64,000 nucleotides of DNA from Zymoseptoria tritici IPO323 (taxonomy: Eukaryota; Ascomycota; Dothideomycetes; Mycosphaerellales; Mycosphaerellaceae). The notes under the pieces are model-generated. The model made no database searches. It was given only the letters and a program-made list of their open reading frames with translations, and was not told the DNA's origin. Below are positions 14,266 through 34,257 of this stretch, one piece after another; position 1 is the stretch's first letter, and every line of letters starts with the position of its first letter. The translations under genes and the position numbers were made by a program. The DNA lies in NCBI RefSeq assembly GCF_000219625.1, contig NC_018206.1, forward strand, positions 186,001-250,000, given 5' to 3'.

Positions 14266-17200
14266 TTAGTTAGACTCCTTGGTCCGCTTTCTCTTCAAGT
14301 CTTTCCTTACGCGTCCGCCCTCCAGTCCGGTAATTCCAAGTCCAGCAATGTGCTTCTCAAAGGTGTATTGATCTAGTGCTTTCGTGAAGATGTCGGCGGT
14401 GTTGTCGGTTCCTGGTATGTGAAGGAGAGTAACCGTCCTATCGTTAATCAATTGACGAATGAAGTGATACTGGATCCGGATGTGCTTAGTTGCTTCGTGT
14501 TTTACCGGGTTGTTGCTAATCGCGATGGCGCTCCTGTTGTCTACTCGAATAACTACAGTGTCCTGCTCCGTTCCGAAGTATTGGACCATTCGTCGCATCT
14601 AGACTGCCTCCTTTCCAGCGTAATGGAGGGCAGTGTATTCGGCTTCCGCAGTAGACAGGGCTACGGTAGTCTGCTTCTTGCATCTCTAGCTAAGTGAGGT
14701 TCCACCGAGTTTGAAGACGTATCCACCAATTGACTTGCTGTCCGAGCGGTCTCCAGCCTATTCGGCGTCGCTCATTCCGGTAAGAGGCTCTAGGTTATTT
14801 CTATTAAATTCTAGTCCGAGGTCCAGCGTTGCGGCCACGTATTTGAGTATCCTTTTGATTTGATCCTGGTGGTCCTTTAATGGGTTTGAGCAAAACCGGC
14901 TGGCCTGGGAAACCGAGAATGCTAGGTCCGGTCGAGTTCCTAGCATTGCGTACATTAATGACCTAACTATTGATTAATACCTGAGTCTGTCTTCGGCGGT
15001 GGCGATGTGATCCATAGGCGTAGGTTGCCATCGTGCCTTCGAGTTGTACGGAGTTAGTGCTGGGTTAGCATCTTTCAACCTAAACCTTTCGAGCATCGCC
15101 TTGAGATGCGCTGTTTGAGTTAGTCGAATTGTCCTCTTTTCACGGTCTCTTTCAATAGCGATTCCAAGGAAGAAGCTGCATTCGCCCATATCCTTTATTT
15201 GAAACGCTTTCGAAAGCGACTCCTTCGCCTCCTTAATTGATTTAAGATCAGGGCCTGAGATCAAGAGGTCGTCTATATATACAAGTATATATGTTCCGTC
15301 CTTTTGAAACACAGCTTGATCGTGAGGACACGGCTCGAAGCCAAGTGATTGAAGGGATTTGATTAGAGTTTGATACTAGATGCGCGGTGCCTGTTTTAAT
15401 CCGTAGAGGGCTTTGCGCAGTTTGCAGACTTTGGTGCCGTCCTTTGAGCCAGGCGGTAGTTCGACCCATATGTCTTGGTCGATGTCGCCGTACAGGAAAG
15501 TAGTCTTGACGTCCATTTGATGGACGTGCCAGTCGTGTCTCGCTGCGTGTGCGAACATCATGCGATAGCTCATTGGTTTGACGACTGCCGCAAATGTCTC
15601 TGAGAAGTTGATGCCCTCGCGCTGTTCGAAGCCACGCACTACCCAGCGTGCCTTGAATCGAGTGATCTCGCCGTCCTTTCCTCGTTTGAGCGTAAACACC
15701 CATTTTCCCGAGAGTGGAGCGTCCTTTGCAGTGGCGCCTTCGACCATATCCCATGTTCCGTTCTCATTGAGCGAGTCGATTTCCTCGCGAATTGCCGCGA
15801 TCCATTGTTCTCTGTATTCCGAGTCCATAGCCTGCTAATAGGTATTTAGGACCATTGGGTCCTTCTCCATCAATTGAACAGTGACCGCGGTGTCGACGTC
15901 TGGAGGCTGAAGGGGTCGATTTGGGTCCGGTGGTTGCGTGTCTTCCGTTTCTACTTCGAATTCTATAACCGGTTTACCGGCGAGGAACGCTGCATTAAAG
16001 ACTGATATTGAGTCACTTTGATGCGTGTAGTAGTAACTCACGGGTTGCATTCGGAGTGGTGGCAACTTCGAATTCGTAGGGACTTTAATTGGCGTAGGTC
16101 TAGTAACGTGGCTAATCGGTGGTAGATTCGGTCGAGTTGCGACCTGTGGATTCGCGACTTGCGGTCCAACGTAAGGCATACGCTGTATGTGGTCCGGACT
16201 TCCTTAATTCCTGTTCTCCCACTCGGACCGTGCAGCGGATGCTTCTTGTGAAGGTTGAAGCGCGGCGACGTTGTAGGCAGTCGTCTTGTTCGGCAGATTT
16301 ATTTCCGGTGCATCAATTGCGTCCAAATTGGCGCTGGACAACGGTAACGTATAGTTCAACGAACCATAGTCTAGTCGAACGTCTTCGTCAAACAGAACTT
16401 CCTTCGCACGCTCGATTTTGCTATTAATGGGATTCCACAGTCTGAACAGGTTTTCTCCTTTAAATCCTACTAGTACTCGGAGATGAGCTCGCGGATCGTA
16501 TTTCTTCGGAAATAGCGCTTTTGGTACGAGTTTGTATGTACGGCAACCGACTCGCCGCATCTACCCAATCTCTGGAACGTTCCTAGTAAGTGCCTTATGC
16601 GGTGACCTTTGATTGTGTAGCGCTCGCGTAGGGCTCCTGTTGTTAATGAAGATTGCTGCTTTCAGCAGCTCCGGCCACAGTTCGTTTCGAAGGTGCCCGT
16701 CCTATTTTATGCACCGGATAATGTTCCAGAGGGTTTGATGTCTTCTTTTAACGACTCCGTTCTGATCAGGCTGGTACGCCGCTGTCATCTCTAGTTTCGC
16801 TCCGGCCAATCGACAGGCCTGTGTAATGACATCTACGAATTCTCCGCCTCCGTCTGTGTAAATGCATCGAATCTTCCTATCAAATTGAGTGCCCATGCGC
16901 GTCAGCTAGTCCTTGTAGCATCGGTAGATTTCGTCGGCCATCTTCGTCTTCATTATGTACGCCCAGGAGTGCCTGGTGTAGTCGTCGACTAGTAGCAGGT
17001 AATATCGTTCGCCGCATATCGAGGCAGGCAGTGGTCCGCCGAGGTCCATATGAATCTTCGCAAACGGTTCTGTTTCTCGCACAGGCTCCGATATCTTGTA
17101 AGTTTGCTGGGCCTTGCCCAGATAGCACGATTCGCATGAAAAGGATTGATCAATAAAGCTAATGTTCCTTCGCCTCAGCATTACTTTGGCGGCCTCCGGG

Positions 17201-19647
17201 CTAATGTGGCCCAGTCTTTGATGCCACACGCTTAGTGGTAGTTTCGCCTGCGTGCGCGTGTTGAAGAATGAGGCCGTATTGAATTCCATCGGGAGGTTTG
17301 ATGGCGTTTGGTGGATCCAGGTCGACAGGTAAGAGCTTCCAATCGAGACGTCTAGTGTCCAGAGTTTTCCGCGTTGTGATCCAGTAAGCAAAACTTCACC
17401 GGTTGACAAGTTTGTGAAGTCGTAGTACCCAGTAATTGACGTGTATCGTGTGCCGCTTCGATTGAGGTTGTCGACAGATAGTAAGGACACTGGCATTTGA
17501 GGAATGTGAACAACCTTTGACAAGATCAATTGACGGCTTCCGGAAGGGTGTCGAACTTCTAGTTGAACGCGCCCAACTCCTACTGCAAAGAATCCAGTGC
17601 TACACCCAACTATTTCCTGCGGTGTTTTCAGTGGCACGTAATCGACAAACAGCTCGTGATTCGGGCAGATATGCTCCATAGTGCCGGAGTCCACAATCCA
17701 GTCGTACTTGCCATACCCGCCTTGAACAATGTCCGATTTGGTAGTCTTCGGGGCTGATGCTTGATTGACGACGGAGTAGGAGGCAATGAATAATTGATTC
17801 GATATTGAAGGGTATGTAGGGTGAAGTGCACCCGCAGCAATGTGTTCTGATGCGACTCCAGACGCGAGGTCGGATAGTCATTCCTTTGTAGTGAATGATG
17901 AACTAGTGAATTGTACGACCCGCTCAATCTGAGGGTCGCCGTTATTTGTTACTAAATCATCCATACCCGCTAGGTATGAACGCCGTCCTGGATGAACAGC
18001 GTCTCTGTTCGCACCGGAAGTCATTGGTTTCGAGCTCCCGGGGAGTTTTCTACCCGCCTTGAATGCTTTGAACACTTCGTTGTTCTGCTTCGCACATTGA
18101 CCGTTCGTGTGGGTAGACCGTCCTTTATGGCTTGGCCACTCGCATTTGTTGTTCGCTGGTCCAAGTAGTTGTCCGAGTGGCGGGTCGTTTGAGTCGTGCG
18201 GTCGCTTTGTTCCACGGAATGCCGCATACGAGTGATTTGAAGCCGGCATTGGGTCAATTTGACTCATTCGCTCCTATTCGTTGCCTGCGGAGGACTTTAA
18301 GGACTCGTACGAAATTAGCTGCTTGCCCTTTCCGATGCCACAGATCTTGTAAATTGAGCTCTGGGTCATGATCCAGTTGCTGAAACGAGGGCCTAGTGCT
18401 TTGACGAAGAAGCCGGTTTTGAAGTCGTCCGGAAGTTTTGGCGCCTCGGCCAGGGCGTGGAGTTTAGTAATCCTTCGCTCGAATTCTTTCATAAAGTCTT
18501 CAAATAAACCGGCCTTATCAAACGAGTAGTTAGAGACATCGCCGAGTCTTGACACGAAGTAATAAACTCCATTCGCCATGCAGTGGTTCTCAATCGCTTC
18601 CAGAGCGGTGGCGACGAGGGTAATGCCCTCAATCTTTGATTGAAGGCCTTCGGTAATGTGCCTTCGAATGTAGCTAAGCAGGGAGAGGTTTCTCGCCAGC
18701 CATTCCGCGTGTTCCAGCATCCAGTCGTTCCATTCAGAGGTTGGTGCATCTCCTACTGGAGACACGGGCGGGAGCTCCGATCCATTAATAAGGGTGTGAA
18801 AATTGACTGCGAGTGCGCAGTTGAGGAGTTGACGCTTCTAGGTGGCGTAGTTGTTTAGGCCAGTAAGTGTGACCATCGTGTCAAATTGCTTAGTGTCCTT
18901 AAAACCTGATTTGTACGCCTTCTTGTACTCCGTCGAGCGCTCGGTATATCTTTCCGGCGGAGCAGGGGCAGCGGTAGCTGCTGGCGCACGTCGAGGTGGC
19001 ATATTGACGATGTTGTTAATAGGAGCTGCTTGAAAACGGTAGGAGGACTCGTCCGGAATGAAGAGTGCGTCGTCGTCGTCGTCGGAGGGTGGTGATTTGG
19101 CCGAGTTTCCCTGGGCAAGAGGGGCAGGATCAGTAAACTAAGAGCTGCTGTTGGCGTGATTAGCTTCCTTTGGTAATACAGTCTGTGCAGATGTAGTTGT
19201 ACCAGGTGGAGCCGTCGAGGTGCTTTTAAGGTGATCACTACGCGTCGCACCCGTCTCATCTGGAGACGCTTTCTTCTTGCCCTTTGGCTTAGAGGCCTTT
19301 GGTGGTTTTGATGGACCTGGAGTTGGTAGTGGTGCTGGTGCTGCTGGTGGCGCGGATGGTGCGGTTGCCTTGGTTAAGGAGGTTATTGATGCAATGGTGT
19401 TGCCGTGTGAATCAATGTCGTCAAATGTTCGTCGAGGTGGCCTTGAGTCGTTAGGTACGGATAGACTCGAGAACGGGTTGGTCCTGGGATTGAGGTAGGG
19501 AGTGCTTTAAATGTTTCGTCTTTGTTCTTCGATTTCGGCCTGTTTGTCACGGTGTCTCTTGTAGCGCTGGCGCTCTGCAGCGAGGAAACGACGATGTGCT
19601 GCTTGTTCTTCTGTCTCGCCTGGACGCAGCTTGTATTGTTTTGCCAT
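14266..19647 (-). pseudogene. Copia gag-pol polyprotein, one frame with 15 premature stops
   Basis: From the ATG at 19647 to the stop at 14266 one frame of 1794 codons runs without a single frameshift. It is interrupted by 15 stops: 11 TAG, 3 TAA, 1 TGA. Positions (lowest base): 19507, 19138, 18838, 18274, 17878, 16906, 16702, 16561, 16204, 15835, 15376, 14974, 14758, 14686 and 14599. Segments in order: Lys/Pro-rich gag start, gag core, C/H zinc-binding motif near 18130, protease DSGT near 17690, GAG-pre-integrase (WHQRLGHIS), integrase (D-L-G-G, D-D-Y, TDGGGEF), reverse transcriptase (MDVKTTFLYGD, YIDDLL) and RNase H (STAEAEY, HIRIQYHFIR). Several stops replace conserved Trp or Gln codons (for example APRI-stop-YQT and S-stop-RCKKQ). 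The copy cannot make a full product without readthrough or help. Confidence 0.95.
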
Positions 19648-26982: not shown

Positions 26983-27223
26983 ATTAAATTCATCACGCTG
27001 ATCACTGCCGCCTTCGTCGGCCTCATGGGCATGGCTCCTCTCGTGGCAGCCGTATGCAAACGCCTCCCGCTGCTCGTCTGCCAATGACAAAGCTAACCCA
27101 AGACCGCCAACGATTTGTTTTCTTCCTTTCTTGCAAAATCGGTGCATCGAAGTCCGCAGTCATGGTCAGCTAAATGTGTGCTGACTTTTGTCGCGTTTAG
27201 CTGGGGCAGTCAGTGCCAGTATG
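26983..27223 (+). pseudogene. Defensin-family relic (copy 1): start codon and cysteine exon lost
   Basis: Codons 2-23 match the signal peptide of the intact defensin at 33894 (ITAAFVGLMGMAPLVAA), and the intron donor (GTATGC) is at the same place. The start codon is ATT in place of ATG. The second exon, which would carry the first four cysteines, is missing or unrecognisable. A remnant of the last intron (gtgctgactt...) and of the third exon survives up to 27223, with one cysteine replaced by Tyr. It cannot encode a folded peptide. Confidence 0.7.
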
Positions 27224-28104: not shown

Positions 28105-28752
28105 CTAGAGTCCCAACCCAACTTGTCTAGTCTCATACTCCGTGTCCGAGCGTCCCGATGGAGAGATGAAGTTGACGGTGCCGTCGTTATTGATCCAGAT
28201 CTGCAAGACTTTGCCCTTATCTTCGTCCGTCAAGATGTGCTGCTTGTATCCGGCCGTGGCGGCATCGTTGAGCATCGCGGTACACAGAGCTTCCGCCGCA
28301 ACTCCAGCCACCGCTGTAACGGCCGCGAGCTCAGGTTGAAGGATCTCAGCCGCTGTCAGCGCAGCGCCGATCAAAGTCGGCGCCGCACTCTCGAGCCAGT
28401 TGATGATGTCTTGGAAGTTCTCCGGGTCGGTGTAGAATTGAGACATGGAGTTCTTGCCGATCGGGTCGTTGTCGTTGTGCCCAAGCACGAGCCACCAGTC
28501 TCGGCCTGTGGTAAGCCAGCCTGTGTTGTAGGTGACTTCGAAGGGCGAGGACCATTGACCGGGCTGGAGGATGTCGTAGACGTGTTCTTCCTTGTAGACG
28601 TTGCTGTATTTGTGGACCACGCCGACTCCGCTGATACTGTGAGGAGTGTTGTTGATGACCTGGACGTACGCTTTCTCTCCGTCGCCGCAAAGAGCGAGCG
28701 GGAAGAGGAGAGTGAAGGCAAAGAGCGACTGGAAGAACGTCGAGGGCTGCAT
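28105..28752 (-). CDS. Secreted protein with PUD1_2-like (up-regulated in daf-2) beta-sandwich domain
   Basis: A 215-aa intronless protein. The signal peptide is MQPSTFFQSLFAFTLLFPLA with cleavage near LCG. The N-terminal half (AYVQVINNTPHSISGVGVVH, DILQPGQWSSPFEVTYNTGW, RDWWLVLGHND) resembles the PUD1_2 domain, a beta-sandwich found in nematodes and fungi whose biochemical function is not well established. An alpha-helical Ala-rich middle part follows, then a C-terminal segment (GKVLQIWINNDGTVNF). Only one clear cysteine pair is possible in the mature protein. An extracellular location is likely. The gene lies within the decayed defensin-containing region. Confidence 0.75.
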   Translation of the reverse strand: MQPSTFFQSLFAFTLLFPLALCGDGEKAYVQVINNTPHSISGVGVVHKYSNVYKEEHVYDILQPGQWSSPFEVTYNTGWLTTGRDWWLVLGHNDNDPIGKNSMSQFYTDPENFQDIINWLESAAPTLIGAALTAAEILQPELAAVTAVAGVAAEALCTAMLNDAATAGYKQHILTDEDKGKVLQIWINNDGTVNFISPSGRSDTEYETRQVGLGL

Positions 28753-30651: not shown

Positions 30652-30945
30652 ATGAATTTTTACTGCTCTGATCATCGCCCTCGTCGGCTTCGTGGGCCTG
30701 CCTCTTCTAGTCGCCGCAGTGCGCCGGCCAGTCCTCCCTTCCGTCCCTGTCTCCAAAGCTAAACGACGACTTTCATGCAGGCCTTTGGATATCCCAAGAC
30801 GAGCGCACATGCAACACTCACTGTGTCAAGGACAAGCATCAAGTTAATGCTATTGGTACGTGACCACTGCTCAAAATCTCTGCTCGTATGGCGATATGTG
30901 CTGACTGTAGTCGGGCGAAGCATTGGCCACCCAGCCTGCTACTGC
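30652..30945 (+). pseudogene. Defensin-family relic (copy 2): frameshifts and lost cysteines
   Basis: The signal-peptide exon matches the intact gene once one extra T (run of five T at 30656-30660) is discounted. Its donor (GTGCGC) is at the same codon. The second exon (about 30781-30855) keeps the C-N-T-H-C-V-K-D core, but the first cysteine codon is TAT, two one-base deletions break the frame, and the G-G-Y-C motif is lost. The second intron keeps the tgtgctgact block seen in the other copies. The third exon is barely recognisable. Confidence 0.7.
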
Positions 30946-31084
30946 GATGATACCCATTAGCAGTGCCATTGTCTCTACGCCGATGAGCCTCGAGCCCACA
31001 TCCAGCGCAAACGCTTCAAGTCAACAACAGTGAGCCTGCACTCACTGCAGTACTCGCTGAGCCGACCAGCCTTATGCTCTCATC

Positions 31085-31575
31085 TTGTGCAGCAAGACCG
31101 GCGTCGACGATCCTGAAGCTCCATTCAGCGCGAATACTTCAGGTCGATCACCCTCTGCCTACGTCTGCCGCTGCAATCGCTCAGCCGATCAACCTCAAGT
31201 ATGTATTCCCTACAGCACCTCTTACGCTGACCGGCCTTCCACCTGCATATCGTGCAGAATTTACCAGGTCGATCATCCTTCGCCTACATCTACCACAACA
31301 CCCGCTCTGCCGACCGACCTCGAGCCTACATCCAATACAACACCACTCCGTCCGAGCAGCCCTCCGCCTGCATTCTGAGCAAAACGCTTCGGATCGATCA
31401 GCCCTCATCTTGCATCTCGTCTTGCATCTCTCAGGCTGATCATCCCTTCGCCTGCGTTCTGTGCAGAACTCTTCGGGTTGATCAGCCCTCAACTTGCATT
31501 CTGTCCAACACCGCCGAGGTCGATCTTCCTTCCACCTGCGCACCGTGCACCGCCTTTCAGGTTGATCAGACCTGA
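31085..31575 (+). repeat. Degenerate minisatellite, about 42-48 bp unit
   Basis: About ten diverged copies of a unit built around GTCGATCA-CC-TTCG-CCTGCAT-CTGT. In translation most copies give a V-D-x-P-S-x-C-I-x-x-x-T-type motif, but the frame changes between copies (31085 frame, then 31252 frame), so one long protein is not supported. It could be the fossil of a repeat-protein gene. Confidence 0.65.
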
Positions 31576-32340: not shown

Positions 32341-32854
32341 CATCTACTGGACTATCTCCTGATCAGCTCTTTCTGCTCCGGATTGTCGGTGTCGGTGTTC
32401 CTTCGCAAATTTCCGTGCCTGTACATCGAAATCGAGCTTTTGGAAGGAGAGCACTGAAAAGCAGGTAGTTAGTTACTGGACCGGAAAACTCTGAGCCAAT
32501 CAACGGGTCTTTGGCAGATCAGAACACTCCGGGCACGACACCTCCCACGCCAATCGGCAATGCGACGACTTCCAACCTTCATCCTTTTTCAATCTGTGTG
32601 ACGACGAACGGGAATGGTACAGATTTGGACTCCGCGGGACATCTCGCATCGACCTCAGGCTTTCAGCGTTCTTCGGATCTTGTGGTTGAATGGTGCAACC
32701 GGTGCAACCTTACACTCCATGTTTAGCATGACCGCTGAATCGACCCTCGGGAATGCAGCAGCGATCGATCCTCCATCTGTCCAAACTCAAAGCGCGAGCT
32801 CTACGAGACCGGCAGTGTCAGGCTACTGCACCCCTTCAAGAAACGCAATCCACC

Positions 32855-33217
32855 ATGGAACCAGGAAAATCAAGCCCCCAGGCCGAAAAGTCTGCGTCCA
32901 TGGACAAAATTACCACCTCCCCCAAGCTCAACAACGATCAGGAGGTCAAAGATACTTCTCCTGACAACGCAGGCCAGATGGAGTTCGCAGTCAAAACTGT
33001 TGCGTCGGCAGCGGAGCATGAGGATATCCACGAGGTTCTTACGCGCGCCCCCGCATCCAGCCGTCGCTTTCCAGGTGGCTACATTTGCCGTGGCGGTCGT
33101 CGTATCAAGCATGCGAGGTTCGACGACGGCAAGAAGGAGTTAGGTGGAGGTTATAAAATTGATCATTGCTGCGTTCCACTGCTTTGTAAAAGCAGAGTCG
33201 ATATGCACCATGCATAA
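32855..33217 (+). CDS. Hypothetical protein, about 120 aa
   Basis: An open frame starting MEPGKSSPQAEKSASMDKIT (a longer version opens at 32753). It is Ser/Lys-rich at the start, then has a more ordered-looking segment (QMEFAVKTVASAAEHEDIHE) and a basic Gly-rich end with four cysteines. No domain is recognised. It lies in the repeat-rich part upstream of the defensin gene, so chance is possible. Confidence 0.3.
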   Translation: MEPGKSSPQAEKSASMDKITTSPKLNNDQEVKDTSPDNAGQMEFAVKTVASAAEHEDIHEVLTRAPASSRRFPGGYICRGGRRIKHARFDDGKKELGGGYKIDHCCVPLLCKSRVDMHHA

Positions 33218-33765
33218 CTTTTGAATCTTGGCAAAGCCTTATTGAATATTGCGGCCTCTATCTTTCTTCGCATACTCTTGATTCGAGAAAGTCGTTTCAA
33301 TATGCGTCATGCATTTTTACTGCGAAATACCTTTCCCAAAGAAAGACGAGTCGATGCGCCGCCATTCAAGTTGCTTCCGAAGCAAGATTCCCGAACGCGA
33401 AGGCGAATTGCTACAGAGATCTAGCGAACTGGGGGTTGCCGGGGTTTGTGGCAGATTCCCTTTCGACGAACATTATGAATGAGATCGACATCAACTCCTG
33501 TGCCCAGGATGTAGGTCGCTGTACCTTACATGGCTGTGACAGAGCAGACGACGTAGTCAAGCACAACGACACCGACTGTGATCGACAGCGAGAGCGACGG
33601 CAGGAAGATGAGAATGGGCATCAGCACTGCAAGGGCGCTGGTCTCACTCATATCGCTCGATGGGGCCCGTGAACTATACAGCGAGTTGGCATATCGGAAC
33701 GTTTGAAGTCAAATCGAGCACGGCCGCGGTGTTCCTTTCTCTCCCTTCTTCTCATTCGCAACTGT

Positions 33766-33880
33766 CCACTCGATCAAACCTCTACTTGATCAATCTGCCA
33801 CTTGATCAATCATCCCTTGAAAAGGCATCCACTTGATCAAACATCCCACTCGATCAAACATCCCACTCGATCAAACATCC
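33766..33880 (+). repeat. TTGATCAA-type repeats just upstream of the intact defensin gene
   Basis: Six copies of ac(t/c)tGATCAA followed by catcc-like bases begin near 33768, 33784, 33800, 33831, 33848 and 33865. The last three are nearly perfect 17-18-bp tandem copies. The array ends 14 bp before the ATG at 33894, so it lies in the 5' leader or core promoter. A regulatory role is possible but inferred. Confidence 0.8.
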
Positions 33881-33893
33881 AACCAAATCTACC

Positions 33894-34257
33894 ATGCAGT
33901 TCACCAAGATAATCACTGCCGCCCTTGTAGGCTTCATGGGCATGGCCTCTCTCGTCGCCGCCGTACGCGCTCCCTCCGCCACCGTCTCGTCCTCCCCACT
34001 CCCTCCATCTCCTTCTCGTTCTCACTACCTCCAACCAACTTGTCGTTCCTTCTCCAAACAAAGCTAACACAAGCCTTCTACACAGGACCACGGATGTCCA
34101 GGAAATCCACGCCAGTGCAACACTCACTGCGTCAAGGACAATGCACGTACAGGAGGCTATTGGTAAGTCATCCCGGTTCATGCTCGCTTCTTCTTGCTTG
34201 GAGACATGTGCTGACTTTGTCGTGCAAAGCTTCGGCGCAACTTGCAAGTGTAACTGA
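33894..34257 (+). CDS. Plectasin-like secreted defensin (CS-alpha-beta antimicrobial peptide), intact
   Basis: Three exons (33894-33962, 34086-34162, 34230-34257) encode 57 aa; introns are 123 and 67 bp with GT..AG ends. Exon 1 is exactly a 23-residue signal peptide (MQFTKIITAALVGFMGMASL, then V-A-A). The mature part of about 34 residues has six cysteines spaced C-x6-C-x3-C-x10-C-x4-C-x-C, with G-x-C at the fourth cysteine. This is the cysteine-stabilised alpha-beta signature (helix C-x3-C, gamma-core G-x-C...C-x-C) of fungal defensin-like peptides such as plectasin; members of that family kill Gram-positive bacteria by binding lipid II. Activity of this peptide is inferred. There is no propeptide between signal and mature part, which is unusual because many fungal defensins have one. 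Two dead paralogs lie within 7 kb upstream. Confidence 0.85.

Follow-up and report, generated by a model that had tools for sequence, protein, structure and literature searches.

An intact three-exon gene of Zymoseptoria tritici IPO323 almost certainly encodes the defensin-like peptide Zytrisin-1, which has very probably ceased to act as a general lipid II antibiotic

Defensin-like genes of the wheat pathogen Zymoseptoria tritici were described by Wu, Gao and Zhu in 2017: 29 typical and 19 atypical genes in three isolates, one of which is IPO323 (PMC5234102). In the typical genes, the Zytrisins, the signal peptide ends at a phase-0 intron, and a second intron is in phase 2. Three pseudogenes of IPO323 were named (Zytrisin-17, -19, and -28), and one more gene was broken in all three isolates. 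Zytrisin-1, which is present in two of the three isolates, was singled out for its detectable similarity to the ancient invertebrate-type defensins, with an n-loop of equal size and a c-loop that lacks a basic residue. Both of its introns are supported by RNA-seq, the CD spectrum of the peptide is that of a CS-alpha-beta fold, and an I-TASSER model agrees with a helix and a sheet. Synthetic Zytrisin-1 produced no inhibition zone at 0.4-0.8 nmol per well on any of 11 strains (five Gram-positive, four Gram-negative, and two fungal), which the authors link to the c-loop, a basic residue at this site being stated as a requirement for AITDs and CITDs (PMC5234102).

Other described systems bear on this locus as well. 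In micasin-type genes, the helix region is interrupted by a phase-0 intron and the c-loop by one in phase 2 (PMC4165938). In Py4, a variant of plectasin, contacts with lipid II are made by the N-terminus, Phe2, Gly3, Cys4, His18, and Cys37, and two terminal loops dock plectasin to the bacterial membrane (PMC8877149).

The window analyzed here, a stretch of 64 kb in its whole length, holds a defensin-like gene (Table 1) located at positions 219,894-220,257 of chromosome 13 of IPO323; contig 13 was taken as chromosome 13, a core chromosome, by contig order. This is a real, intact gene that was read correctly from the raw sequence. The three exons, two GT-AG introns, signal peptide, and 34-residue peptide with six cysteines proposed in the initial annotation are all present, as are the cysteine spacing and the G-x-C motif, and start codon, stop codon, splice sites, all six cysteines, and the glycine ahead of Cys4 are intact. 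Intron 1 contains a branch-like CTAAC that starts 22 bases upstream of the intron end; in intron 2, a similarly branch-like CTGAC starts 19 bases upstream of the end.

Table 1. Defensin-like gene and its broken relatives, in coordinates of the 64-kb window
Feature	Position	Strand	Remarks
Defensin-like gene	33894..34257	+	
Exon 1, signal peptide of 23 residues	33894..33962	+	Intron 1 (phase 0) directly after
Intron 1, 123 bases, GT-AG, phase 0	33963..34085	+	After residue 23
Exon 2, Cys1-Cys3 with C-x3-C and first two bases of the Cys4 codon	34086..34162	+	
Intron 2, 67 bases, GT-AG, phase 2	34163..34229	+	Splits the Cys4 codon after two bases
Exon 3, remainder of Cys4, c-loop, C-x-C, and stop	34230..34257	+	
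Nearer broken relative, signal-peptide, exon-2, and exon-3 segments	30652..30960	+	blastn 72% over 122 bases, 82% over 50
Farther broken relative, signal-peptide stretch without start codon	26983..27229	+	Protein 68% over residues 2-23; blastn 81% over 69 bases

When both strands of the window were scanned with a script that encodes the three-exon grammar of this gene, a single start emerged, and 100 dinucleotide shuffles yielded none; the grammar had been composed post hoc with the gene already known. The grammar alone does not determine the last acceptor, because an earlier version of it left room for two alternative third exons after this start. This ambiguity, together with the shortness of the exons and the fact that they were joined by eye, is what could be said for a chance assembly of exon-like stretches with no gene behind them; such an assembly has a negligible probability given the empty shuffles, the similar exons elsewhere in the genome, and, in PMC5234102, the published splicing of the family and a peptide of equal mass. 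The exon 3 acceptor chosen in the initial annotation is the one that yields the published mass of Zytrisin-1.

The precursor comprises 57 residues. For the mature part of 34 residues we calculated masses of 3629.03 Da (reduced) and 3622.98 Da (oxidized) with ExPASy-type residue masses, and of 3629.01 and 3622.97 Da with Biopython; the theoretical masses published for Zytrisin-1 are 3629.03 and 3623.0 Da, respectively (PMC5234102), so the peptide agrees in both states. Among 400,000 random six-cysteine peptides of 30-46 residues and uniform composition, 17 fell within 0.05 Da of the published mass. With the length fixed at 34 residues, nine of 400,000 did so, and with the composition of the peptide itself the count was 479 of 400,000. 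The gene also has the marks of the typical, not the lambda, Zytrisins: the phase-0 intron, the split Cys4 codon, Cys2-x3-Cys3, and Cys5-x-Cys6. Its intron 2 corresponds to the phase-2 intron of the family (PMC5234102).

With Zytrisin-1 it has in common the species and strain, the intron positions and phases, the precursor layout, the six-cysteine framework, the n-loop size, the uncharged c-loop, and the mass of 3629.03 Da; in a comparison with the text of PMC5234102 on these features, no difference was found. Because the mass match, the gene structure, and the published description coincide, the identity is close to certain. The gene is almost certainly Zytrisin-1, an assignment based on mass, gene structure, and description and not on sequence letters, the order of residues not being fixed by mass. 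Almost certainly, too, it is not a new find but a gene already named, whose product was synthesised and gave a negative antimicrobial assay. The suggestion of an undescribed antimicrobial peptide is therefore unsupported: the peptide was published in 2017 as Zytrisin-1, and its synthetic form was inactive in the assay cited above. In the open-licence literature searched, the name zytrisin occurred only in PMC5234102; the available portions of other papers on Z. tritici defensins or effectors (PMC13127573, PMC11328434, PMC10502814, and PMC9438471) contain nothing on this gene. The case shows that raw sequence read by eye can reveal a real three-exon peptide gene, and why candidate finds need to be checked against the literature ahead of any claim of novelty.

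Similarity searches with the peptide gave weak matches throughout. The Pfam models Scorpion_toxin_alpha-beta (22.8 bits, cut-off 27, E 1.2e-4) and Defensin_2 (17.1 bits, cut-off 20.4, E 0.005) both scored below their curated cut-offs. In the sequence search of the PDB, the best matches, all weak, were 2b68 (listed as a defensin, E 0.0039) and eurocin (E 0.0049), followed by an entry listed as an arthropod defensin (E 0.031), micasin (E 0.043), and plectasin (E 0.44); scorpion toxins were also among the weak matches. No candidate with three five-residue words in common was found among 5.8 billion proteins, a search that does not bear on the Z. tritici annotation. Taken with the sequence itself and with the RNA-seq and CD results published for Zytrisin-1 (PMC5234102), the weak defensin and scorpion toxin matches bear out the reading of the locus as an intact defensin-like gene.

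The cysteines of the mature peptide are spaced C-x6-C-x3-C-x10-C-x4-C-x-C, with a glycine two residues N-terminal to Cys4, so that the CS-alpha-beta features C-x3-C, G-x-C, and C-x-C are all found. Three disulfides, C1-C4, C2-C5, and C3-C6 as in the published model, would hold one helix onto a small sheet. If cleavage follows residue 23, the proposed absence of a propeptide ahead of Cys1 holds. Plectasin has longer loops, the n-loop included, and a propeptide. The n-loop of the peptide described here comprises six residues, and its c-loop, F-G-A-T, is short and uncharged; the lack of a basic residue there departs from the plectasin-type gamma-core. Like micasin and eurocin, the peptide starts with G-C-P, has six residues between Cys1 and Cys2, and carries H-C at Cys3, but its c-loop is shorter than theirs and free of basic residues. 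The gene differs from micasin-type genes in that the phase-0 intron precedes the mature peptide instead of lying in the helix region. The description as plectasin-like stands for the cysteine framework, but the c-loop is uncharged and short, and the n-loop, with its six residues, is of the micasin/eurocin type.

Could the peptide nevertheless be a working antibiotic of the plectasin type, one that inhibits cell-wall synthesis in bacteria by binding lipid II? It shares with plectasin the cysteine framework and G-x-C motif and with eurocin and micasin a weak similarity, and when residues are placed by their cysteines, five of the six lipid II contacts of Py4 (the N-terminus, Gly3, Cys4, His18, and Cys37) have a like residue in the peptide; histidine takes the place of Phe2. 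The calculated net charge is about +1.9 at pH 7, whereas according to the published text over 70% of the Zymoseptoria peptides are neutral or negative, a figure to be read with the note to Table 1 of the same paper, in which the percentages are worded as the share of peptides with a positive charge (PMC5234102). This cationic charge alone would favor antibacterial action, and it counts against a loss of activity. But the loops are short, not of the kind that docks plectasin to the membrane, the c-loop is without a basic residue, and no zone appeared with any of the nine bacterial and two fungal strains at 0.4-0.8 nmol (PMC5234102); a working antibiotic of this type is very unlikely.

We favor a reading in which the polar cage has been kept and membrane docking lost. 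Most positions that contact lipid II would still be served, by the free N-terminus, Gly3, Cys4, the histidine before Cys3, and Cys5, while the short loops and the c-loop without a basic residue would no longer dock the peptide to the membrane. General antibacterial action would then be gone because docking is lost, though the cage persists. Zytrisin-1, a 34-residue CS-alpha-beta peptide from a family with frequent duplication and loss, is thus very probably no longer a general lipid II antibiotic. Today it probably has a more limited role, on the surface of hyphae or in the apoplast of wheat, or a slight one. Since the 2017 assay covered 11 strains at a single range of doses, the peptide could conceivably act on other microbes. 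A more specific proposal, that a lipid II-binding cage without docking loops acts selectively on wheat-leaf bacteria (or on a wheat target) and was missed by the 11-strain assay, seems to us improbable.

The surroundings of the gene tell something of its history. Two broken relatives precede it on the same strand, and the starts of the three are spaced by about 3.7 and 3.2 kb. The nearer copy keeps C-N-T-H-C-V-K-D in the exon 2 segment and C-x-C in the exon 3 segment; the frame is lost in its first two segments, and the Cys1 codon is absent (segment ends and frame were judged by eye). In the farther copy, remnants of both introns were recognized, of 16 and 17 bases (E 0.028 and 0.097, individually weak but in order), no match to exon 2 was found, and the exon-3-like end, as read by eye, is without C-x-C. 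Apart from the gene itself, genome searches with the precursor and with the signal peptide (E values up to 10) detected only a stretch at 26986 within the farther copy and a site on chromosome 2 (2852037-2852105). At this site there is an open signal-peptide exon whose protein is 70% identical and whose donor sequence is the same. The numbers of relatives are lower bounds, because blastn within the window was the sole search to detect the nearer copy.

From two broken neighbors and an orphan exon on chromosome 2 it appears that copies arise and die here, in agreement with what PMC5234102 reports on the family. A TATA-like motif was noticed by eye upstream of the chromosome 2 exon. A loose search for the remainder of a gene within about 1.4 kb downstream of it gave four combinations, none credible: all of them start within a stretch that carries a 340-codon open reading frame on the reverse strand, and the last exon lacks C-x-C.

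Two readings of the present role, both compatible with identity to Zytrisin-1, draw on this history. The gene may encode a secreted effector of narrow spectrum or facing the host, aimed at certain microbes of the wheat leaf or at a plant target. The product is small and disulfide-rich and has a signal peptide, the fungus is a plant pathogen, and the family is large and variable, with copies lost between isolates (PMC5234102) and broken ones nearby. A parallel, drawn by description, is VdAMP3 from another plant pathogen, Verticillium dahliae; it is described as a CS-alpha-beta protein and, in contrast to Zytrisin-1, counted as antimicrobial (PMC9438471). Variability of this kind is equally expected under relaxed selection, and the authors of PMC5234102 judged a role of the family in immunity unlikely. 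An effector role is accordingly a real possibility, though one we hold to be short of probable.

Alternatively, Zytrisin-1 may be a lingering copy under relaxed selection and without important function. The two neighboring copies and the chromosome 2 exon are broken or incomplete, and Zytrisin-1 occurs in two of three isolates and had no antimicrobial activity (PMC5234102). Against this, the gene preserves its six cysteines and the glycine ahead of Cys4 as well as its start and stop codons and splice sites, and the family members that are not pseudogenes are transcribed (PMC5234102); we regard this reading as possible but doubtful. At issue is how a wheat pathogen would profit from a defensin-like peptide that folds but lacks the usual antimicrobial activity.

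Several further features of the window were recorded. A tandem repeat with a 16-base unit (TCCACTTGATCAAACA) occupies positions 33765..33881 on the plus strand in 7.2 copies and stops 12 bases short of the start codon; visual inspection showed no such array upstream of the farther broken copy. Between the nearer broken copy and the intact gene lies a degenerate direct repeat (31140-31373; units 31140-31248 and 31265-31373, 71% over 109 bases), and an open reading frame at 32753-33217 matched no Pfam family at E 0.001. Parts of a retrotransposon, which we take to be of the Copia type, were found at 15376-17694 on the minus strand (RVT_2, gag_pre-integrs, and Pol_BBD), and a long open transposase frame of 495 codons, presumably Tc1/mariner, at 183-1670 (DDE_3 and HTH_Tnp_Tc3_2). 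Finally, the minus strand at 28105-28752 encodes a 215-residue protein with a signal-like start that matches PF18457 (PUD1_2) at E 6e-48, a family whose description cites up-regulation in long-lived daf-2.
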